The notes under the pieces: model-generated
What the model was told of the DNA's origin: nothing
Database searches by the model: none
Seen by the model: only the letters and a program-made list of their open reading frames with translations
In this document: positions 2,191 to 46,418 of the stretch, piece by piece
How positions within the stretch are numbered: the first letter of the stretch is position 1
Layout: the number at the start of each line of letters is the position of its first letter
Virus record (IMG/VR): IMGVR_UViG_3300029267_001908
Span: 1-50,640 of that record
DNA from: a virus
Strand: one strand, 5' to 3'
DNA: 50,640 nt
Translations under genes and position numbers: made by a program

Positions 2191-2713
2191 GGCGGCGGAA
2201 TTGCTTGGCGTTAGCAAACGTAGCATAACGAACTACATAGACAAGGGCTTGATCTCTGCCAAGAAGGTGCAGAGCAACCATGGGTGCGGCTATGCGTGGG
2301 ATATAGAGGATGAAACGGTTTACGCACTGCTTGAATCGCGTGGCGAGGAGCGACCAGAAGCACCACCGCAGAAGGAGCAACCAGGCAGTAAAGCAAGCGG
2401 CAAAACAAGCAGCAGAGGGCATGACATTACCAGAGGCGAAGCAGAGCGTTTGCTTAAATATGAGCAAATGAAAAGCGCTCGATACAAGAACATGCAACTT
2501 GAGAAACGCCTTGTTGATGCTGAAGAATTGAAAAGCGGTATTGCTGCGGTGTTTACTAGCACGTGGGGTCGGCAACGTGAGTTTATAGAGCAGTGGGCTA
2601 TAGATTTTAATCTGACATTTGGTCAGGTTGACCGCATGCAAAAGGACTTTGACAAGGCGCTTAAAGCAGGCAATGAAGAGCTTGCAAGAAAGGTTGACAA
2701 TGCTAGAGGCTAG
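2177..2713 (+). CDS. terminase small subunit, Nu1-like
   Basis: The N-terminus is a MerR/Nu1-type winged HTH (TMLEAAELLGVSKRSITNYI) followed by a linker rich in Gln, Ser, Glu and Lys and a helical C-terminal part. Lambda Nu1 has the same plan: a winged helix that binds cos and a helical region that contacts the large subunit. At 178 residues it is close to Nu1 (181). It overlaps the upstream gene by 14 nt and the large terminase start by 14 nt, which supports paired expression with the large subunit. Confidence 0.75.
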   Translation: MTMLEAAELLGVSKRSITNYIDKGLISAKKVQSNHGCGYAWDIEDETVYALLESRGEERPEAPPQKEQPGSKASGKTSSRGHDITRGEAERLLKYEQMKSARYKNMQLEKRLVDAEELKSGIAAVFTSTWGRQREFIEQWAIDFNLTFGQVDRMQKDFDKALKAGNEELARKVDNARG

Positions 2714-4535
2714 CATAATAGCGGGCGTTTTGCAAGATGCCTATAGCCAATCAATGGGGGTGCCGAAATATGGTAGCATCCTTGAATTTTTCGAAGATGG
2801 CTTTTCGCTTACAGACGATGATCGCTTTAAGCGCTTCGAATTAAAGTATTCTCCGTGGTGTAGGGAGCTGTGCCGGTGGTGGTCGGACTATTCAACACCA
2901 TGGATATACTTAATATTTGGTTCCCAGTTGGCAAAAACGTCTTTTATGATGGGATGCTTGCTCTATGTTTCGCAATACGAACGCGGCGCTACACCGTGTA
3001 TATGGGTAATGAGCATAGCAGAAGAGGCCAAAAACTTCATAAAAGGCAGGTTGAAACCGTTTCTTGATGAGTCCGGAGAAGAGGCAATCAAGAAAGATCA
3101 ATGGAAATTGTCTTCTTTCCGTGTCAATAATAGCTCGGTCAAGGTCGGCTACGCAACAGCAAAAACAACCATTCGTACCAAGCCATGTCGCTATGCTTTC
3201 GGTGATGAAATAGGCTTGTGGAAAGAATCGACCAACTACGTAAAGAAACGTACAAGGACGTTTGAAGGCAAGCGGAAAGGCGTATTTTGCACAACACCAC
3301 CAGATAATTCAGATCATCATAGTGTAAGTGAGATGTTCGCAGGTAACTATTACCAATGGTGGGTTCCATGCATGCATTGCGGCAAATACCAAGGCTTGCT
3401 GTTTAAAAATCTGGTGTTCAAGGAAGGCAAGGTTGATGGTGTTTGGGACTTTGAGAAGGTAAAAGAGTGCGTGCGGTACAAGTGCGAACACTGCGGCGGC
3501 TTCTGGTACGACCATCAAAAGTTAGACATCATCAACAAGGGCAAAACGGTATGTGTTGATCCTGACACATACGAATCGAGAGAAGAACGCAAAAGCGATT
3601 CCAAAACGCTTCAAATCAGTGCTCTATATAGTGTCTTTACCGAGTGGGGAACGCTTGCTATCGGGCACTTGAAGGCAGAGCAAGAAGGCTACAAGGCACG
3701 TATCGAGTTCATCACAGATGAGCTTGCCGAAGTTCCCAAAAAACGCCTTGGCCAGAGCTTGAAGAAACACGAGTTAGCAAGATTCATCGATCCGATACGT
3801 AAGAGCGGAATTATCCCAGGCTACAACCTATACACCGCGGGCATCGACGTACAACGTGCCGGCAATCTATATTATTCTGTATGGGGCTTTAAAGGCGGTC
3901 CTGTCATAAGCTCTCACTTGCTAAAATATGGCATTGTCGGATGGAAGGACGCAGACGGCGGTGTAAACTGGATTCCTTTATTACAAGAGTTTGCTGATTT
4001 TCGTTCTAGGTTGTACCGTGCTACGCTTGACGCGACAGATGGCGAAGTAACATTTGTCATATATGATTTCTGTCGATACCACGGCAAGCCATTTGTGCCG
4101 CTTAGGGATGCAGGAACACAGCTTGAAAAAATATGCTTTAAGTCGTTAGACATCGATCCAAGGACCGGGCAGAAGCTAAAAGCAACCGGGTTTAAGTACT
4201 TATCCGTTAATTCAGACATCGTAAAAGACGAAATAGCTACGATGTTTTCACGCCTACCAACCGATGAAGGCGCTTGCACGTTTCCGTGTGACGTGGAAGA
4301 GGTGTTTTTACGTCATATATCAAATGAACACCGGACAGAAGAAGAGAGAAGAGGCCGGATAGTGTCGACCTGGCAGTTGCGGTATTCGGGAGCAGCGAAT
4401 CATTTCTTTTCAACGATGGTTTACGCACATGCCGCAATGGAAGACGTTAGACCGTTACTACAAAAAGCAGGAGGGGCCAAAAAATCAATACGAAAAGCAA
4501 GAAAAAGGATCATATATCCGGGAGAACAGTTGTAG
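2700..4535 (+). CDS. terminase large subunit, GpA family
   Basis: The ATPase and nuclease that packages DNA into proheads. The deviant Walker A GSQLAKTS is at residues 74-81 and the Walker B region YAFGDEIG at 165-172. Two CxxC pairs (CMHCG and CEHCG) form the zinc-like module usual in the lambda GpA family, and the nuclease part begins near GIDVQ. I choose the ATG at 2700 (MLEAS), which has an AGAAAGG site just upstream and overlaps the Nu1-like gene; an earlier in-frame ATG at 2619 would overlap that gene by 95 nt. The 611-residue length is usual for the family. The C-terminal end is very basic. Confidence 0.95.
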   Translation: MLEASIIAGVLQDAYSQSMGVPKYGSILEFFEDGFSLTDDDRFKRFELKYSPWCRELCRWWSDYSTPWIYLIFGSQLAKTSFMMGCLLYVSQYERGATPCIWVMSIAEEAKNFIKGRLKPFLDESGEEAIKKDQWKLSSFRVNNSSVKVGYATAKTTIRTKPCRYAFGDEIGLWKESTNYVKKRTRTFEGKRKGVFCTTPPDNSDHHSVSEMFAGNYYQWWVPCMHCGKYQGLLFKNLVFKEGKVDGVWDFEKVKECVRYKCEHCGGFWYDHQKLDIINKGKTVCVDPDTYESREERKSDSKTLQISALYSVFTEWGTLAIGHLKAEQEGYKARIEFITDELAEVPKKRLGQSLKKHELARFIDPIRKSGIIPGYNLYTAGIDVQRAGNLYYSVWGFKGGPVISSHLLKYGIVGWKDADGGVNWIPLLQEFADFRSRLYRATLDATDGEVTFVIYDFCRYHGKPFVPLRDAGTQLEKICFKSLDIDPRTGQKLKATGFKYLSVNSDIVKDEIATMFSRLPTDEGACTFPCDVEEVFLRHISNEHRTEEERRGRIVSTWQLRYSGAANHFFSTMVYAHAAMEDVRPLLQKAGGAKKSIRKARKRIIYPGEQL

Positions 4536-4804
4536 AGCGTTCGAACGTTCGAACAGTAATAGAGCATGAACACGAAGGTTTAGAGACGATCACAAGGAGC
4601 AATATCCTTGAAATATACAGTGAGTTTTGCATTAAGCGCAAAATAACGCTTAGAAAGCGCGCAAATGACATAGGCGTGTCACACGGGACGCTTTCGAAGC
4701 TTGAAAACAACGGATTTCCGCCTTCCGAGCGTATTGTATTGAACATTTTAAGCTATTTTGAGCGCTTAAAGAGAGCAAATGGACACGCAAAAACGCCGGT
4801 TTAG
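4484..4804 (+). CDS. XRE-type HTH protein, possible AUC start
   Basis: The frame open from about 4452 to 4804 encodes a clear XRE-like HTH: ITLRKRANDIGVSHGTLSKL followed by ENNGFPPSERIVLNIL. No ATG, GTG or TTG exists in this frame before the HTH. The best candidate is ATC at 4484, nine bases after a strong AGGAGG (4469-4474) inside the end of the terminase gene. Starting there gives 106 residues beginning NTKSKKKDHISG. Alternatives are a -1 frameshift from the terminase frame or a gene that has lost its start codon. The palindrome at 4539 lies inside the coding frame. It is followed by repeats and its own terminator, so it looks like a separate moron-like unit, possibly a regulator. Confidence 0.5.
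   Translation: MNTKSKKKDHISGRTVVERSNVRTVIEHEHEGLETITRSNILEIYSEFCIKRKITLRKRANDIGVSHGTLSKLENNGFPPSERIVLNILSYFERLKRANGHAKTPV
4539..4554. repeat. palindrome GTTCGAACGTTCGAAC, copy 1
   Basis: A perfect 16-bp palindrome made of two tandem copies of the self-palindromic octamer GTTCGAAC. It starts three bases after the terminase stop and lies inside the small HTH frame. The same sequence recurs at 13132 and 23900, always at a gene boundary in the late region. It is probably a binding site or, as RNA, a hairpin. Confidence 0.85.
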
Positions 4805-4905
4805 GCTGTCAAATAAGCTGTCACTTTTGCGACCGCTTTAGATGAGTAAAATCGGATGAGACAGCGTTTTTAGGCTGTCAAATAAGCTGTCAAATAAGCT
4901 GTCAA
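4801..4905. repeat. direct repeats of CTGTCAAATAAG
   Basis: A 23-bp sequence starting TTAGGCTGTCAAATAAGC occurs at 4801-4823 and again at 4870-4892. The second copy carries an extra 12-bp CTGTCAAATAAG unit plus a partial one. The first copy overlaps the stop codon of the HTH frame. No coding is seen between the copies. The role is unknown; direct repeats like these could bind a regulator. Confidence 0.8.
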
Positions 4906-9235: not shown

Positions 9236-10258
9236 ATGGCTATCACTTATAATCCTTATGCCGTGCGCGACTTGATGGTGTTAGTTGAAGAACTCAAGTC
9301 TCCGCACAACTTTCTTTCCGATACGTTTTTTCCTGGCAAAAGAACGTCTGCTTCGATCTATCTTGACCTGGATTTAGTCACCGGCAGTAACGAGATTGCA
9401 ACATACGTTGGAAGCGGTGTAGAACCTCGTATTGTTGACAAGCGTGGCTATACGATGAAGTCAACCGAGTTGCCGCAAACGGCAGAAATCATCAAGATTA
9501 CATCAAAAGACCTTCAAAAACGTGCACCGGGTAAAACCATATATGACGGTGGCCGTACACTCGACGAAATGGTCGGCGAAGCGTTCACACAGCTTTATCA
9601 ACGCATTGCAAACCTGAGAGAGTATCAAGCATCCGAATCGCTTCGAACCGGACAAACAACGATTGACGGCAAAGGCGTGAATGCTGTTGTCGAATGGGGG
9701 TATGAAACCGGCGCAGGAAAACACATCGAAGTTTTGGCCGGCGACGATCTGTGGAGTTCTGCCAATTCTGACCCGTGCGCTCAATTTCGTGAATGGCGTT
9801 CTGAAATTGTCAACAGATCCGGGCTTGCTCCGCGTATCGCGGTTATGAGGTACAGCACTTTCAATTATCTGATTGATCATGCAACCGTTCAAACGATGCT
9901 TGACAACCGACGTTTTGAAATCGGTCGCCTCAAATATGAAGAGAAGTACGAAGGGCTTGTCTACTACGGAAACGTGGAAGGCATTGATATCTATGTCTAT
10001 GATTTGCAGTACAAAATTGATGACACCGCAACTGATATTATGCCTGACAAATACGTGCTTTTCGGGTCGACCGCCGCCAAAAATCACATCCATCACGGCG
10101 GTATTGATCATGTTGAGTGTGCAGGTAAAGCCATGGATTACTTTCCGGATACATGGATCGAAAAGGTTCCTTCTTGTATGAATGTGGGCCTGTACACCTC
10201 GCAAATCGCGGCATTGTGTCAACCGAACGCTTTTAAATGCGTTCAGGTGTTAGCGTAA
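9236..10258 (+). CDS. major capsid protein, lambda gpE family
   Basis: A 340-residue HK97-fold capsid protein, identical in length class to lambda gpE (341). Recognisable features include TFFPGKRTSASIYLDLDLV near residue 30, GYTMKSTELPQTAEIIKITSKDL around 77, and a C-terminal AGKAMDYFPDTWIEKVP. It follows the decoration protein with a GGAGACGC site before the ATG. It should be the most abundant virion protein. Confidence 0.95.
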   Translation: MAITYNPYAVRDLMVLVEELKSPHNFLSDTFFPGKRTSASIYLDLDLVTGSNEIATYVGSGVEPRIVDKRGYTMKSTELPQTAEIIKITSKDLQKRAPGKTIYDGGRTLDEMVGEAFTQLYQRIANLREYQASESLRTGQTTIDGKGVNAVVEWGYETGAGKHIEVLAGDDLWSSANSDPCAQFREWRSEIVNRSGLAPRIAVMRYSTFNYLIDHATVQTMLDNRRFEIGRLKYEEKYEGLVYYGNVEGIDIYVYDLQYKIDDTATDIMPDKYVLFGSTAAKNHIHHGGIDHVECAGKAMDYFPDTWIEKVPSCMNVGLYTSQIAALCQPNAFKCVQVLA

Positions 10259-32105: not shown

Positions 32106-33035
32106 TCAAAATCCGTGTGAGCTTTTCCAATCCTTGATAACTTTCCCAAGCGCTCTTAATCCTCCCACACTCAAAAAGTCAAACGCCTTTTCGCCATTAG
32201 TACCGACGTGCATTGAAATTTCAACGAGCGCCTTGTGTATTTCATCCGGACTCAATTCATCGATCAGGCCGAATTTTTCAAGCTCTTTCGGGCTTGCGTC
32301 AATGTCCCATTTCGGCGGCTCCGGCATTTCATCCCTGCCGCTGTATCCTCTCGCTTGTGCTTCGCTAAGATCACCTTTCTCAAAGTGTCGGACGTCCGAC
32401 ACTTTTTGTTTTGCCTCTCTCACTGAGTCGGCTTTCAAAATCTCATCTTGCTTTTTCGGATCCTTTTCCTTAGCTATTAGGATCAATTTTGATATGTCGG
32501 ACGTCCGACACTTTTCCCGGTTGCTCTCAGGGATCCGTAATATCGATATCAATTCACTCACCCGGCTCCGGCTTAATCCTACCATCCCGGCAAGCTCTTT
32601 TTGAGAGATTTTCCGCCCTTCACTTTCCTCTAATCGCGTTCTGAGGTCGGACAGGGCTTCGGCACGGTCAAACGGCCACAAGTCTTCTCTCATTTCGTTA
32701 TCTAAGAATTGATTGATTTTCAACTCCTCATCATTCATAGAGGGGAAAATCACGCAAGGCAATTCATCAAGACCGGCGTTAACGGCCGCTTGATAGCGCC
32801 GATGTCCATTTATGATTTTATATCGATCCTTGCTTACCAGCACCACAAGAGGCGTTTTGACTCCCACAGATTTGACCGAGTCGGCCAAATCTTCCATGCT
32901 ATCATCGTTGATTGACCGGCGGTAATTTGTTTCATCGGGATCCAGCTTCCGAATATCAAGCATTCGGTAAACGGGTTTTGTGGGCTTGCCGTTTTTGCCG
33001 AACATCCCGAAAGATATATCACCTAGTTTTGACAT
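32106..33035 (-). CDS. parB: partition protein ParB
   Basis: A 309-residue ParB with the N-terminal ParB/Srx domain (NGHRRY at 76-81, usually the arginine-rich GxRR motif that binds CTP), then the HTH (KISQKELAGMVGLSRSRVSE, 142-161) that binds parS, and a variable C-terminus. It binds palindromic sites, spreads, and is moved by ParA. Two candidate sites (32382, 32495) lie inside its own reading frame. It overlaps parA by 13 nt. The C-terminal segment is echoed in the 30878 gene. Confidence 0.9.
   Translation of the reverse strand: MSKLGDISFGMFGKNGKPTKPVYRMLDIRKLDPDETNYRRSINDDSMEDLADSVKSVGVKTPLVVLVSKDRYKIINGHRRYQAAVNAGLDELPCVIFPSMNDEELKINQFLDNEMREDLWPFDRAEALSDLRTRLEESEGRKISQKELAGMVGLSRSRVSELISILRIPESNREKCRTSDISKLILIAKEKDPKKQDEILKADSVREAKQKVSDVRHFEKGDLSEAQARGYSGRDEMPEPPKWDIDASPKELEKFGLIDELSPDEIHKALVEISMHVGTNGEKAFDFLSVGGLRALGKVIKDWKSSHGF
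32382..32405. promoter_or_regulatory. palindrome TGTCGGACGTCCGACA, perfect 24 bp, inside parB
   Basis: The central TCGGACGTCCGA is extended symmetrically, AAAGTG before and CACTTT after, to a perfect 24-bp palindrome. It is the longest copy in the window and sits in the coding region for the ParB linker. It is a candidate parS. Confidence 0.8.
32495..32510. promoter_or_regulatory. palindrome TGTCGGACGTCCGACA, inside parB
   Basis: A perfect 16-bp palindrome in the parB coding sequence, about 105 bp from the longer copy. It is in the ParB interdomain-to-C-terminal coding part. Candidate parS. Confidence 0.8.
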
Positions 33036-33754
33036 CTGTTGATTCTCCTCAGTGTTTCTTTTGCAAAATCCTCATAGCATTTTGCACCGGTTGACCTTGG
33101 GGCATATTCAAAAATGCTCTTTCCATGACTCGGAGCCTCTTCAAGTTTGACGTTTTGGCGAATTTCGGCCTTGTAGAGCATTCCGCCTAAGTGTTTTTTA
33201 TAGAGGGCTAAAACTTCATTTGTGACACGTTTTCGCCGGTCAACCATGGTCGGCAACACTCCCAAAAGGTTTTTAGCGTCCCAATTGCTAAGGATTTGTT
33301 GTAATCCCTCTAATGAAAGATATTGAGGCGTAACCGGGATGATGACCGCTTGAGAGAGTGTAATAGCGGCCACAGATAAACATGAAAAAGAGGGAGGCGT
33401 ATCTATTATAATATAGTCATAGTTGCCGCCGACGTCATTTATGATCGTCTCAAGAGCGTTACTATTTGCTCCGATCACCAAATCAATACCGGCAAGGCCG
33501 ATACCGGCCGGGATGATGTCCCCGCAAGACGTTTTAACGATTGCTTTTTTAGGCGTCCTGTCCTGTAAAATAATCTCATCAAGCGTGATGTCGGGAGTAT
33601 TAACGCCGACATGTTTTGAGAGGGAGGCTTGAGAGTCAACGTCAAGCATGAGGACGTTTTTCTTTTTCTTGACATGGAGATAGGCGGCCAGGGCGGCGGC
33701 GGTTGTTGTTTTGCCTACTCCGCCTTTGCTACATACTAATGATATAATAATCAT
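33023..33754 (-). CDS. parA: partition ATPase ParA
   Basis: A 243-residue ParA/MinD-type ATPase with the deviant Walker A KGGVGKTT (10-17), LMLDVDSQAS near residue 36 and a Walker B-like VIIIDTPPS segment. There is no N-terminal HTH, which places it with the shorter (type Ib or chromosomal-like) ParA proteins. It uses ATP to pull ParB-bound plasmids apart. AAGGAAA precedes the ATG, and palindromic sites lie 15-70 nt upstream. Confidence 0.93.
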   Translation of the reverse strand: MIIISLVCSKGGVGKTTTAAALAAYLHVKKKKNVLMLDVDSQASLSKHVGVNTPDITLDEIILQDRTPKKAIVKTSCGDIIPAGIGLAGIDLVIGANSNALETIINDVGGNYDYIIIDTPPSFSCLSVAAITLSQAVIIPVTPQYLSLEGLQQILSNWDAKNLLGVLPTMVDRRKRVTNEVLALYKKHLGGMLYKAEIRQNVKLEEAPSHGKSIFEYAPRSTGAKCYEDFAKETLRRINRCQN

Positions 33755-33769
33755 AATTGGTTTCCTTTT

Positions 33770-33820
33770 TGTCGGACGTCGAAAAGTGTCGGACGTCCGA
33801 CACTCTCAGACGTCCGACAA
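33770..33820. promoter_or_regulatory. three palindromic sites upstream of parA
   Basis: A cluster at 17-18-bp spacing. The middle one is a perfect 20-bp palindrome (33785-33804) with core TCGGACGTCCGA. The left one (33770-33782) lacks one base and the right one (33806-33820) has a single mismatch. The location directly before parA fits both autoregulation by ParB (or ParA-ParB) and a partition site. Confidence 0.8.
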
Positions 33821-33829
33821 TTCCCCTAT

Positions 33830-34579: not shown

Positions 34580-34595
34580 CTTAAAACCTTTCATG

Positions 34596-34618
34596 TCTCA
34601 ATTAGCAATTAACGTGTC
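34596..34618. repeat. CAATTAGCAATTAACGTGTC leader repeat, copy 1
   Basis: TCTC followed by AATTAGCAATTAACGTGTC. On the - strand it is the leader of the 33830 gene. A near copy with an extra AACAATT lies in the leader of the 36063 gene (36487-36516). Confidence 0.55.
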
Positions 34619-34628
34619 TCATGTCAAA

Positions 34629-34646
34629 GTGTCGGACGTCCGACAC
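34629..34646. promoter_or_regulatory. palindrome GTGTCGGACGTCCGACAC, between two leftward genes
   Basis: A perfect 18-bp palindrome of the parS-like family, in the gap of about 75 bp between the genes at 34655 and 34579. Candidate partition site or operator. Confidence 0.8.
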
Positions 34647-36470: not shown

Positions 36471-36486
36471 GGTTGGATTCTCCTTG

Positions 36487-36516
36487 TCTCAATTAGCAAT
36501 TAACAATTAACGTGTC
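36487..36516. repeat. CAATTAGCAATTAAC leader repeat, copy 2
   Basis: Nearly identical to 34596-34618 but with an inserted AACAATT. It lies in the leader of the leftward 36063 gene. TCACATAA follows at 36514, a half copy of the intergenic element seen elsewhere. Confidence 0.5.
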
Positions 36517-36530
36517 ACATAAAGTTACAA

Positions 36531-37139: not shown

Positions 37140-37448
37140 TTATCGGCCGGAAAAATTGAAATGGATTTCAGGCGGCCATGAGGTACTTTCTCCGATACTC
37201 CCGGTTGTATAGTTGCTATGGATTGTTGAGCCTTTGACGATCATTCTTTCTTGCGCCTGGCCGTTGTATTCACACCGGATAAGAGCGGAGCGCTCACCCC
37301 AAAAACCGGTAAGATCGACGGCAAGCGGAGTAACACCGGCATAATCACCACGTATGTAAACTTTCGCCCCTTGTGGAGATGAGTTTATTGCAGTTGTGGC
37401 ACAACCGGCAAGGATGAGGAGAGAGAGGATATAGAGGTATTTATTCAT
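37140..37448 (-). CDS. PEGA-domain lipoprotein
   Basis: A 102-residue protein with a signal peptide and lipobox LAGC (lipidated Cys16), then a PEGA-type beta domain (SPQGAKVYIRGDYAGVTPLA, about 24-43). PEGA modules bind cell-surface or extracellular partners. It should be anchored in the outer or inner membrane of a Gram-negative cell. It overlaps the repressor stop by eight bases and is co-transcribed with it, so it is likely made in lysogens; superinfection exclusion or surface change is a natural guess, not proven. Confidence 0.7.
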   Translation of the reverse strand: MNKYLYILSLLILAGCATTAINSSPQGAKVYIRGDYAGVTPLAVDLTGFWGERSALIRCEYNGQAQERMIVKGSTIHSNYTTGSIGESTSWPPEIHFNFSGR

Positions 37449-37791
37449 TGATTTTATCCTTTAGCGTTTTGTAAAATTTAGCTCTTGTTGCACTATCTAA
37501 ATTATCCAAATGACTAAGGATAGAATCAAGCAAAAATAGTACCCCTTTTTCGTCTATTTCTATTTCTATATCTTTGTGTCTAGGGTCGAAGTGGGATAGA
37601 TCTTTTTCAAATGCTATAGCTATTCTAAATAGGTTTCTCAATGATATCCAATGTTTGCCAGATTCCCATTTTGAGATTTCACGTTGTTGTGATAGCGGAT
37701 CAACTTTCTTTGCAAATTCTTTTTGAGTCAATTCGCCCCTTAACTCTCTTATGCGTTTTGCAATGTATTTTATGTATTTTTTGTCTTCCAT
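37441..37791 (-). CDS. XRE-family repressor
   Basis: A 116-residue protein with an N-terminal XRE HTH (LTQKEFAKKV, then QQREISKWESGKHW) and a C-terminal helical part. The ATG is preceded by a T run with no ribosome site, so the mRNA may be leaderless, as lambda cI is from its maintenance promoter. A strong divergent promoter lies about 30-60 bp away (37822-37850). It is the best candidate for the prophage repressor. Confidence 0.8.
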   Translation of the reverse strand: MEDKKYIKYIAKRIRELRGELTQKEFAKKVDPLSQQREISKWESGKHWISLRNLFRIAIAFEKDLSHFDPRHKDIEIEIDEKGVLFLLDSILSHLDNLDSATRAKFYKTLKDKINE

Positions 37792-38757: not shown

Positions 38758-38976
38758 ATGAATGCAAAAACGATCAGTAGATTAGATAAAATTATTGGAA
38801 AGAAGCTAAGAATCTTAAGGGTTGAGAACGAATTGACTCAATCACAATTAGCTGAGATGCTTGGTTGTGGACAACGAACAATAAGCACTTGGGAACGTGG
38901 CGAATGCTCAATTCCTTCTGGCAAATTAAAGATTATTTGTCAAACACTTGGTGTTAAAATAACCTATTTTCTGTAG
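38758..38976 (+). CDS. small XRE regulator
   Basis: A 72-residue XRE HTH protein (LTQSQLAEMLGCGQRTISTWE) of the size and position of a Cro-type regulator, in the rightward immunity operon. No strong ribosome site lies before the ATG. The HTH covers residues 20-50, and a second helix pair closes it. It likely antagonises the repressor. Confidence 0.75.
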   Translation: MNAKTISRLDKIIGKKLRILRVENELTQSQLAEMLGCGQRTISTWERGECSIPSGKLKIICQTLGVKITYFL

Positions 38977-39369: not shown

Positions 39370-40950
39370 ATGGGAGAGGAAAAAGTCAAGGAAGATAGGA
39401 TTGCGGTCCCTGTTTTCCTCTTGCGACATAACTTTACAATCGCCGACAAACGCCGCCGCACCGACGGCAAAAAAGAATTTTACGTGCCTTCAAGATTTGG
39501 TGCTATCACAGTGTCTTACCTCACCGATGCCGGTGTTATCACTCCGGCCCACACAAAAGTATTCCTTTCAGTAATCAATCTCGTAAAACAAGCTCTTGAC
39601 GCCGTACCGGAGGAGAAGCGGAGCGTTTTAGCATGGGATATGGTCAAGGATGGGATCCGGCTCAATCAGGCCGATGTAAGGAAGTATCGCGGATTTAGCA
39701 AGGCAATAAAAAATCATATGCTCATCCGTGATTCGTTGTATCTCTTCCACAGAATGAGTATATATTCAAAAGAAATGTGGTTTAGTTTACATTCTGTGTC
39801 AAGGGTTGAGGAGTGGTTTACCCTTATACCAAAATTCAAACTGTTGAGGCCGGTTATCCCTCATTGGATGCCGGATAAAAAAGAGGTCTACCTTGATATA
39901 AAATTATGTGATCGTATCTATCAAGCCCTCATGGATAAAAAGCGTATCATCTATTTCCCAAAAGAGACGCTTTTTAAATTAGATGGCCTTGCTTTTAATC
40001 TGTATCTCTTTATCTACTCTCAAAATTTGAGCAAGAGAGATATTCAATATTTTTCGATTGAGGAGTTGATAAGGGAGAGCGGATATTTTAACAGTAACCA
40101 GGGGGAAAAATATCCCGGTCGAAAAAATGTAGCTATCAAAAGAGCGCTTAATCTTTTGGTAAAACATGGAGCTATAAAAAGCTTTATGGTTTCAAAAGAT
40201 TATAGAGTTACAATATCACACAAGGGTGTACTCAAAGTTCAAAAAGGGTGTACTCAAAGTTCAAGGGGGGTGTACTCAAAGTTCAAAACCTCTCCGCAAG
40301 CTCAACAAAATCAATCCACACAAGCGCCGTTAAATCTTAAGTCTTTAAATCCTAAGTCTATAAATCTTTCCATAGAGCACACAGAATGCCAAGGTGATTT
40401 TAATTTTGAAAAATCCCCTCAAGAAAATGGAAATGATTTGCAATCAAAAGTTGGGGGGCATAAGGCAGGGGAAAAAGAATCAAGTAGGGGTGAGGAAAAA
40501 ACAAAGGAAGAAAGATCAACCGACACACCACAATATCAAATCCCCTCCTATATTGATAATCAACCTCGTAAGGCTCCCTCACTGACAAGTGAGCTTACCG
40601 TAAAATTCTTAGGTGACTACACCGAAAAAAGAGCAACCGCCAATCAAAAAACCTCATCCCCCTCTATTGATACTCTCTCTTCTCCTACCATGAAAAGAAT
40701 TGCGGCCCGGCTCCGCGACATTCCCGGTTTTGATACCCGTTACATGTCGGCCATGATGGCCGCTGTAAAGGCCCACAAATGGACATACCGTGAACTTGAC
40801 GACATGATCACCCTCAAGGTTTGGCAGAGTGAGCAATCAAAATGTAACGCCTCTAAAGTGATTTTCGGCCGGATCCGCAACGGTACCCGGTTGGGCGAAT
40901 GTGAAGAACGGGTATTAGCCCAAATCAGAGGGGAGAAGATAAAGAAATGA
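39370..40950 (+). CDS. replication initiator (plasmid-type Rep)
   Basis: A 526-residue protein with CAGGAG eight bases before the ATG. The N-terminal half looks like a plasmid initiator with winged helices (FIYSQNLSKRDIQYFSIEEL, about 220-240, and VAIKRALNLLVKHGAIKSFM, about 255-275). The middle part has low complexity. The C-terminal 90 residues form another helical DNA-binding-like region. Three iteron-like repeats lie in its coding region (40224-40286) followed by AT-rich direct repeats (40330-40370), which is a strong sign that it binds its own gene to start replication. The exact Rep family is not certain. Confidence 0.7.
   Translation: MGEEKVKEDRIAVPVFLLRHNFTIADKRRRTDGKKEFYVPSRFGAITVSYLTDAGVITPAHTKVFLSVINLVKQALDAVPEEKRSVLAWDMVKDGIRLNQADVRKYRGFSKAIKNHMLIRDSLYLFHRMSIYSKEMWFSLHSVSRVEEWFTLIPKFKLLRPVIPHWMPDKKEVYLDIKLCDRIYQALMDKKRIIYFPKETLFKLDGLAFNLYLFIYSQNLSKRDIQYFSIEELIRESGYFNSNQGEKYPGRKNVAIKRALNLLVKHGAIKSFMVSKDYRVTISHKGVLKVQKGCTQSSRGVYSKFKTSPQAQQNQSTQAPLNLKSLNPKSINLSIEHTECQGDFNFEKSPQENGNDLQSKVGGHKAGEKESSRGEEKTKEERSTDTPQYQIPSYIDNQPRKAPSLTSELTVKFLGDYTEKRATANQKTSSPSIDTLSSPTMKRIAARLRDIPGFDTRYMSAMMAAVKAHKWTYRELDDMITLKVWQSEQSKCNASKVIFGRIRNGTRLGECEERVLAQIRGEKIKK
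40224..40286. repeat. three iterons with 22-bp period inside rep
   Basis: GGGTGTACTCAAAGTTCAA occurs three times, at 40224-40242, 40246-40264 and 40268-40286, without mismatch. The 22-bp period is two turns of DNA and not a multiple of three, so the copies are read in all three frames (as KGVLKVQ, KGCTQSS, RGVYSKF). Conservation at the DNA level, not the protein level, is therefore required; this is the classic form of a Rep-binding iteron array. Confidence 0.9.
40330..40370. other. AT-rich 15-bp direct repeats (candidate unwinding element)
   Basis: TTAAATCTTAAGTCT (40330-40344) and TTAAATCCTAAGTCT (40345-40359) are tandem, and a third partial copy follows at 40360. Such AT-rich repeats next to iterons resemble the duplex-unwinding element of plasmid origins. 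CAATCCACA at 40312-40320 is a weak DnaA-box-like match (7 of 9). Confidence 0.6.
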
Positions 40951-41399
40951 TTTACGAATTCGTTACTCCATCGGATCCGATTACCTTTAAAGCCGACAAT
41001 GACAAAATAGCTTATGCCTGTACTACCTTTCTCGGCAACGGCCAGGCCGGTTGCACAAGGGAAGACGGCAAAAGCCTAGATACCATGATAGCATTCTGTA
41101 ATTGTGATGAATCATGGATTGAAAAGGCAATCAAGGATTTTTTAGGCTCCGACTTGGGAGAATTCATAGAGCAAAATCGGGAGGCAATTGCAAAAGCTTT
41201 TGCTAGTTTTTCCTATGGCCGTATATCAGATCGGCATTTATACGATGATGCCATTGAGGCCATCACGGAGCCGGAGAGGCTTGAAGAATTTAAACGTAAA
41301 CATGAGGACCGGAGCCGGTCAAGCATGTCAGAGTGGGTAAAAGGCGCCTGGCAATATGCCGGGATTTTGAGAGCGGAGGGAGAAAAATGCAAGGTTTGA
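40947..41399 (+). CDS. hypothetical protein after rep
   Basis: A 150-residue acidic protein whose ATGA overlaps the rep stop. Features: an N-terminal beta segment with CTTFLGNGQAGCT, a central SLDTMIAFCNCDESWIEKAI and helices. The family is not recognised but it looks like a phage protein of the replication region. It is co-translated with rep. Confidence 0.5.
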   Translation: MIYEFVTPSDPITFKADNDKIAYACTTFLGNGQAGCTREDGKSLDTMIAFCNCDESWIEKAIKDFLGSDLGEFIEQNREAIAKAFASFSYGRISDRHLYDDAIEAITEPERLEEFKRKHEDRSRSSMSEWVKGAWQYAGILRAEGEKCKV

Positions 41400-41644
41400 C
41401 ATACAAGCCCGGCGATCCATGCCCACAATGCAGCACGCGCTTGTTGTATTTCGCGGATGAGCAATGCGTGTGGTGTGAGCACTGCGCGTGCACATATGAT
41501 CTGGCAGAGCTAACGCACTGCCCGTACTGCCATGGCGAGCTAGCCGGCAGTGAACTGGAACGCGAGCAGGGCATAGCATATTGCCAGCAATGCTTGCGCG
41601 GCGTGTTTTGCACTGTGAGCAGGCAGTTGCAGGAGGTGAGTTGA
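41387..41644 (+). CDS. zinc-ribbon protein with four CxxC knuckles
   Basis: An 85-residue protein. Pairs: CPQC, CVWCEHC, CPYC and CQQC, probably two zinc sites. The start ATG has GGAGGGAG about nine bases upstream, and its stop overlaps the next gene's start (TGATG). It is the first of several zinc-ribbon proteins in the rightward early operon. The role is unknown. Confidence 0.6.
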   Translation: MQGLTYKPGDPCPQCSTRLLYFADEQCVWCEHCACTYDLAELTHCPYCHGELAGSELEREQGIAYCQQCLRGVFCTVSRQLQEVS

Positions 41645-41877
41645 TGAGGACAACCGAAATTTCCGACGTCGTTGCAGACGTAATTGAGGGCTTAGGTGAA
41701 AAAATAAGGGAAGCTCGCAAGGAGAACGGGATTTCACAGAAACGTTTTGCGCGCCTGGTTGGATGCTCCCCTGGCATGATTAGCAGGCTGGAGAACGATG
41801 TTGCTGGCGTGCGAGTATGCACGTTGATATCTGCGTTGCGCGTCTTGTCGCGCGTTGGAAAGGTGGTGTTGCCATGA
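41644..41877 (+). CDS. small XRE HTH protein
   Basis: A 77-residue protein with an XRE HTH (GISQKRFARLVGCSPGMISR). GGAGGTGA precedes the ATG; longer forms upstream lack support. It probably controls this early operon. It overlaps the next gene by four bases. Confidence 0.7.
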   Translation: MRTTEISDVVADVIEGLGEKIREARKENGISQKRFARLVGCSPGMISRLENDVAGVRVCTLISALRVLSRVGKVVLP

Positions 41878-44934: not shown

Positions 44935-45133
44935 GCCAACACGCACAACCATAATCGAGCTACGTAAAGACCTATGCGATGAAGTTGAATCATTGGCATT
45001 GCGTATAGGTGTGCGTGATTACGAAATCATCAGCGCCGCCATAGATTACTTTCTCAGGCATTTGGAGCTACAAAAAGAGGCCTTGGAATTACTTGAGAAA
45101 ATGAGCGCCAAAAATGCTAACAGCAATCTGTAA
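44924..45133 (+). CDS. small DNA-binding-like protein (RHH-type)
   Basis: A 69-residue protein with GTG start, overlapping the upstream gene by 11 nt. The N-terminal strand RTTIIELRKDLCDEVESLAL followed by a helix pair (VRDYEIISAAIDYFL) resembles ribbon-helix-helix repressors. It precedes the helicase gene with a 20-nt overlap. Confidence 0.5.
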   Translation: MTNKPTRTTIIELRKDLCDEVESLALRIGVRDYEIISAAIDYFLRHLELQKEALELLEKMSAKNANSNL

Positions 45134-46418
45134 CGCAACAGCAGAGGTAAGCGTGCTATCCACCACGCTACACAGGCCTGATTTGGCCATAGATATATGC
45201 AGCGAGCTAAAGCCGCAGCACTTCGGCGACCAACGCCACCGCGCTATATTTTCCGCTGCGTGTTCGTTGTGCGATAATCACCGGCCGGTGGACCTGGCCA
45301 ACATGATTGAGGAGCTTAAGAGGGCGCGGACTATGGACCGTGCAGGCGGCTATGAGTACGTGCTAGAGCTAGCCGACATCTGCGCATCAGGCGCAGAAAT
45401 AGAAAGCCATTGCCGCATTGTGCGAGACAAAAGCAAGCTGCGTAAGTTTTGGTCGCTGGCAGAGCAATGGCGGCAGAAAGCAGAAGCGCAGACGGCAGAA
45501 GCGCAGGAAATGATTGATATAGCGGAGGACGATTTATTCCACCTCAATATCGATCGTCGTAGTCGGATCGCTCCGGTGTCTGCGCACCTGGCCGGCATAA
45601 TCAACTCGCTGGACGAAAAGCGCATCGATCACATCCCTACCGGGTTTTTCTCCGTAGACGAAATTCTCTATGGATTTGCCCCACAGGAGCTTGTCATCGT
45701 AGCTGGGCGACCATCTATGGGTAAAAGTGCGTTTGTTGTTAACGTCGCGTTAAGCGTCGTTTTAGAGCAGCTAACGCCGGTCTGTATTTTTAGCCTTGAG
45801 ATGTCCAGCGAGCAAATCATCAGAAACATGTTGCTGTCCATATCGGGCGTAAACGGGCACAAATTCTCCAGACGTGAAATAGACCAGAAAGAATACGGGC
45901 GCATTACAAACGCCTGTAGCACCCTAGATAGGGCTCCGCTCTATATCGATGACACACCGGGTTTAACGCCGAGACAGATCAGAGCAGAGGTGCGGCGTCA
46001 AGTGAAAAAAGGCTGCAAGGTGTTTTTTGTTGACTATCTGCAGCTAATGGAAAGCTCAGAGCGGCATGAGAGCGTGCAGGCTAAAACCGCTTACCTTTCG
46101 AAGAGGATGAAGGCTATAGCGAAAGAATTTCGTGTGACCATGGTAGTACTAAGCCAGCTAAACCGGTCAGTGGAGGCCAGAGAGGATAAGCGCCCTCGCA
46201 TGTCGGATTTGCGAGACTCCGGAGCGCTTGAGCAAGACGGCGATAAAATCGTGTTCCTTTATCGAGATGAATATTACAATCCCGATACCGCCGACAAAGG
46301 CATTGCGGAGGTGATCATCGCCAAACATCGCAATGGTCCAATTGGCACTGCCAAGCTGGCTTTCCATAGGCAATGTGTCAGGTTTGCGGGCCTGGCATCT
46401 CATTACAAGGCGGTGTAA
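45114..46418 (+). CDS. dnaB: replicative DNA helicase, DnaB-like
   Basis: A 434-residue DnaB family helicase that unwinds DNA ahead of the replication fork. The N-terminal domain (residues 8-110) precedes the RecA-like domain with Walker A GRPSMGKSA (198-206), CIFSLEMSS, a Walker B-like FFVDYLQLM, and a C-terminal IIAKHRNGPIG motif. Likely loaded at the rep/iteron origin. The gene overlaps its upstream neighbour. Confidence 0.92.
   Translation: MLTAICNATAEVSVLSTTLHRPDLAIDICSELKPQHFGDQRHRAIFSAACSLCDNHRPVDLANMIEELKRARTMDRAGGYEYVLELADICASGAEIESHCRIVRDKSKLRKFWSLAEQWRQKAEAQTAEAQEMIDIAEDDLFHLNIDRRSRIAPVSAHLAGIINSLDEKRIDHIPTGFFSVDEILYGFAPQELVIVAGRPSMGKSAFVVNVALSVVLEQLTPVCIFSLEMSSEQIIRNMLLSISGVNGHKFSRREIDQKEYGRITNACSTLDRAPLYIDDTPGLTPRQIRAEVRRQVKKGCKVFFVDYLQLMESSERHESVQAKTAYLSKRMKAIAKEFRVTMVVLSQLNRSVEAREDKRPRMSDLRDSGALEQDGDKIVFLYRDEYYNPDTADKGIAEVIIAKHRNGPIGTAKLAFHRQCVRFAGLASHYKAV

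Follow-up and report, generated by a model that had tools for sequence, protein, structure and literature searches.

Origins of replication located within the gene for their own initiator protein have been studied experimentally in lambda O, pSK41 Rep and repC (PMC5043065, PMC5703833, PMC3155836). The lambda origin comprises near-identical iterons of 18–19 bp, which are spaced at 20–24 bp and centrally placed in the initiator gene (PMC5043065). In pSK41 four Rep boxes lie centrally in rep, the origin-coded domain of the protein is a linker and the DNA-binding domain is N-terminal (PMC5703833). The repABC plasmids have oriV within repC, together with an AT-rich region that has been probed with synonymous changes, and carry partition genes (PMC3155836), while in the Rep_3 plasmid pSK639 there are 22-bp tandem repeats upstream of rep (PMC5703833). 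The mycobacteriophages Miko and Jeeves are temperate and are kept as plasmids by parABS and a RepA-like initiator; their origin has been proposed to lie upstream of or within repA, and repeated motifs near repA were not identified (PMC7157519).

Here we analyse an entire virus record of 50,640 bp (the window), in which the gene rep encodes a putative replication initiator, P0001, and contains three identical iterons followed by an AT-rich array (Table 1). We consider it highly probable that this is an in-gene origin of the lambda O kind, AT-rich repeats included, with iterons that are bound by the product of rep, in a phage likely to be maintained as a plasmid.

The locus resembles the lambda origin in the length, spacing and position of its iterons within the gene, in their occurrence in all three codon phases, and in the AT-rich least stable stretch that follows them. 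However the lambda iterons vary among themselves, whereas the three found here are identical, and lambda iteron 1 is a clear dyad while the dyad in the present iteron is weak. P0001 does not match Phage_rep_O, and the lambda initiator gene lies next to that of a P-type loader, in place of which the present phage carries DnaB and ParAB genes of its own. With pSK41 Rep the locus shares repeats inside the initiator gene and a linker encoded by the proposed origin, but P0001 has no RepA_N Pfam match and its predicted winged helix lies at residues 197–284, not at the N-terminus. Like the repABC plasmids, the phage has partition genes and an AT-rich region, with its proposed origin in the initiator gene, although repC lacks iterons and forms one operon with repAB, whereas here iterons are present and parAB lies on the opposite strand at a distance of 5.6 kb. 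Miko and Jeeves, as RepA-type extrachromosomal phages, likewise combine partition genes with an initiator, but whereas their RepA proteins can be recognised as related to plasmid RepA, P0001 cannot. Finally, the initiators of Rep_3 iteron plasmids (pSK639, F, P1) are winged-helix proteins, and P0001 has a weak fold match to RepE; in contrast to the upstream repeats of pSK639, however, those described here lie inside rep, P0001 has no Rep_3 Pfam match, and the record contains no DnaA box in its exact form (TTATNCACA).

Results and discussion

Table 1. Positions (bp) of the proposed origin region and of other phage genes and sites in the window
Feature	Position	Strand	Basis or remark
Terminase gene	2619–4535		35 kb from rep
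ParB-like partition protein	32106–33035	-	PHROG 4715, E 1e-31
ParA-like partition ATPase	33023–33754	-	PHROG 164, E 7.4e-52
Candidate parS, TGTCGGACGTCCGACA-type palindromes, perfect and near-perfect	33765–33822	.	Upstream of parA
Small HTH regulator genes	37441–37791, 38758–38976, 41641–41877		
rep, putative replication initiator P0001 (526 aa)	39370–40950	+	Open frame; holds iterons and AT-rich array
Predicted winged-helix DNA-binding domain, residues 197–284	39958–40221	+	Single-sequence AlphaFold, Foldseek
Iteron 1, GGGTGTACTCAAAGTTCAA	40224–40242	+	Codon phase 1 of 3
Iteron 2, same 19 bp	40246–40264	+	Codon phase 2 of 3; AAA spacer before
Iteron 3, same 19 bp	40268–40286	+	Codon phase 3 of 3; GGG spacer before
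Candidate DNA-unwinding element formed by AT-rich direct repeats of 15 bp, TTAAATCTTAAGTCT x2.6	40330–40369	+	Tandem Repeats Finder, stability
C-terminal segment, residues 456–526, proposed helicase/replisome contact	40735–40947	+	Less polar than 285–455 linker
150-aa gene, PHROG 10705	40947–41399	+	E 1.2e-21; overlaps rep stop codon
Phage replicative helicase, DnaB-like	45114–46418	+	Pfam DnaB_C 5.7e-88, DnaB 2.9e-20; PHROG 19

The phage and its partition locus

The record encodes terminase, portal, head protease and tail proteins as well as ParA, ParB and a DnaB-like helicase. This combination of virion, partition and helicase genes in one record suggests a temperate phage, probably one that is kept as a plasmid. 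The helicase gene lies 4.2 kb from rep and is not adjacent to it. In addition to the palindromes listed in Table 1, one more exact palindrome of the same type is present at 34626–34646; judging by their position, those beside parA (33769–33820) are likely to form a separate partition site. GC skew tracks gene direction along the record and is uninformative on the origin.

Three other features of the record were observed. A 33-bp repeat (TGTCTCAATTAGCAATTAAC...) is present at 34594–34626 and again at 36485–36517, about 1.9 kb apart. Repeats of GCTGTCAAATAA occupy 4800–4904, in the interval between the terminase and portal genes. The gene at 1102–2190 encodes a 362-aa protein with an ABC-ATPase-like part and an acetyltransferase-like end, partial relatives of which are found on many large plasmids, some of them adjoining ParB-like genes.

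Three identical iterons in three reading frames

The 19-bp iteron occurs in exact copies with a 22-bp period at 40224–40286, as the earlier note had described, without mismatch and in all three frames of rep. The copies differ in the peptide that they encode (KGVLKVQ, KGCTQSS and GVYSKFK) and not in their DNA, and none of the three frames has a stop codon. No further copy with up to three mismatches is present in the 50.6-kb record, and 100 dinucleotide shuffles gave a mean of 0.04 matches, none of them containing three. The iterons are the sole identical, equally spaced triple of at least 12 bp in the record at periods of 19–100, and form its top Tandem Repeats Finder (TRF) array (score 113); in 40 first-order Markov simulations the longest identical triple was 6 bp. 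Among 200,000 synonymous recodings of the iteron peptide, no more than 14 of the 19 columns were identical across the copies, and thus the repeat is not forced by the protein. The dyad in the iteron core (TGTACT-CAA-AGTTCA) has a symmetry no better than chance (p 0.39).

It had been claimed that a DNA repeat running through all three frames could only be explained by selection on the DNA. This goes too far, because DNA is carried over into other frames by a recent tandem duplication as well. The copies are indeed exact and in tandem, and they lie in a polar, probably disordered linker that might tolerate insertions, yet we consider it unlikely that the array is simply a recent 22-bp duplication without function at the DNA level. 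Strict tandem repetition is limited to the 19-bp core; its two 3-bp spacers (AAA and GGG) agree at none of their three positions while the cores are invariant, and this pattern, which concerns six bases in all, is unlike a fresh 22-bp duplication. Three iterons preserve the reading frame because 3 x 22 = 66, whereas one or two more would shift it, and the frame would be kept only by additions in multiples of three, not by copies gained one at a time. The position of the array at the junction of helix and linker, as in other phage initiators, and the AT-rich array that adjoins the iterons also speak against duplication.

The AT-rich array and DNA stability

The AT-rich 15-mers span 40330–40368, in frame and 43 bp downstream of the iterons. 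Their TRF score of 64 is the second highest in the record, tied with that of an array at 4874–4905 (part of the GCTGTCAAATAA repeats), and two of the best-scoring tandem arrays of the record are both inside rep, 43 bp apart. The interval 40330–40369 is the least stable 40-mer within rep and ranks third in instability among the non-overlapping 40-mers of the whole record. The probability by chance of an iteron array this near the least stable 40-mer is 0.12, and the closeness of array and unstable 40-mer in 13 other phage genes follows a marginal trend (combined p 0.056); this closeness is suggestive but no proof. When the same code was applied to phage lambda, it recovered the four annotated iterons, spaced at 20–24 bp and read in codon phases 0, 2, 2 and 1; within O, the 40-mer of lowest stability begins 4 bp past iteron 4.

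In-gene arrays in a helicase-linked panel

We assembled 47 viral loci via their helicase. In 40 of them the initiator position is occupied by an ORF, and these ORFs form 26 sequence clusters. In-gene arrays with a period of 15–30 were found in 13/26 of these clusters, compared to 5/318 control clusters (Fisher p 6e-13), in a panel that was chosen by helicase similarity and with TRF settings of our own picking, and which is not a blind sample. In six of the 13 clusters the periods include one that is not a multiple of three. In Pfam, the array-bearing genes that were scanned match HTH_36, Phage_rep_O with DnaB_2, or Phg_2220_C, or have no match.

A separate phage (L127), whose DnaB is 36% identical to the present DnaB, carries a 22-bp array at 10172–10233 whose copies are 100% identical; this array is located just upstream of, not inside, the gene in the initiator position.

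The iterons might also be the sites of a protein other than P0001, either an operator for a small HTH regulator or a second ParB partition site, and for these the phage does supply candidate proteins, namely three small HTH regulators and ParB (Table 1). Such a role is very unlikely. The array lies about 850 bp into the ORF, no promoter-like site is nearby and such sites are no more frequent than in shuffles, while the partition locus has palindromic repeats of its own beside parA, with another sequence; the absence of the iteron from the rest of the record counts against either version. It is extremely improbable that the array is a pac or cos packaging site inside the gene for a DNA-binding terminase small subunit, an arrangement with a parallel in a Levilactobacillus plasmid that has a 22–23 bp array in an HTH gene immediately before the terminase gene, as rep is 35 kb from the terminase gene of this phage and lies in a module with the DnaB and partition genes.

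That the Rep protein binds within its own gene, at an origin at about 40220–40370, had been proposed in the earlier note, and this reading fits all available tests. It would account for the predicted winged helix before the array and the AT-rich 15-mers and least stable 40 bp after it, and is consistent with the parallel found in lambda with the same code and with the enrichment of in-gene arrays in the panel.

The product of rep

Sequence comparison of P0001 with Pfam, NCBIfam, PHROG and PDB gave no convincing match. The Pfam domains Phage_rep_O (PF04492), RepA_N (PF06970) and Rep_3 did not match up to E 1, and we therefore do not class the protein with any of these. For residues 197–284 single-sequence AlphaFold predicts a winged helix with the elements H-E-H-H-E-E (pLDDT 73, pTM 0.68), which stops exactly at the start of the iterons; residues 1–290, predicted without relatives, gave no fold (pLDDT 34). 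Foldseek matched residues 197–284 weakly to the GpO N-terminal domain (prob 0.99), Replication initiator A (0.99) and other phage initiators, and in PDB to RepE, RctB and a Rep-DUE complex, in each case short of E < 0.001 and alongside many other winged-helix proteins. The linker (residues 285–455) is more polar than both ends of the protein, and the segment that follows it may serve as the contact with the helicase or replisome.

Searches for related loci

No credible relative of P0001 was found in viral and genome contigs, in scans that required exact 8-residue words and hence had limited sensitivity, nor in phage and plasmid records, 40 related viral records and four genomes. None of 393 genomes from the phylum of a Spirochaetales hit or 396 from that of a Bacteroidetes hit contained a credible relative. 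Two hits in these genomes (E 5e-4 and 4e-4) were rejected as chance-like, the first being an alignment mostly of low-complexity linker and the second containing two stops, with unrelated ORFs at the locus. The neighbouring gene of PHROG 10705 yielded nothing informative as a lead to related loci. A second record (L004, L117, L118) is 99.99–100% identical over bases 1–38757, but it is silent on the repeats because its match ends 612 bp before rep.

The iteron itself, sought outside the record, returned only tandem or palindromic sequences, and in six-frame translation their surroundings held no similar array in a rep-like gene. A hit on Levilactobacillus brevis plasmid p47-4 (L119, 2987–3062) was rejected; its 22–23 bp array lies in an HTH gene that directly precedes a terminase gene and is perhaps a packaging site. 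In a Spirochaetales MAG, CCTTTGTACTCAAAGG palindromes form short arrays on three contigs (L135, L136, L140).

A proposed mechanism

We propose that the iterons are binding sites for the protein of the gene in which they lie, and that with the AT-rich 15-mers they would make up the origin from which a temperate phage, probably living as a plasmid, replicates its DNA. The winged helix (residues about 197–284) would bind the iterons, which repeat approximately every two helical turns, and the bound complex would melt the AT-rich repeats; the C-terminal part of P0001 may then bring in the phage's own DnaB helicase. We infer that the stretch carrying the iterons encodes a linker, polar and probably flexible, that joins the two ends of P0001, and its amino acids could therefore vary while the DNA sites are kept.

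A bolder proposal is that P0001 is the first of a separate initiator family, consisting of an N-terminal region, a central winged helix and an iteron-coded linker, which arrived independently at the layout of lambda O, with a single in-gene origin for plasmid and lytic replication and an iteron number locked by the reading frame in threes. We regard this as conceivable but doubtful.

Conclusion

We read the present case as one more instance of an established arrangement. Origins inside initiator genes recur across unrelated families, as lambda O, pSK41 Rep and repC had shown before. An uncultured phage gains a precise candidate origin, as well as an initiator that is probably new. To search the gene neighbouring that of a helicase for short repeats whose period is not a multiple of three may offer a simple route to the origins of other phages; half of the panel clusters (13/26) carry an array.
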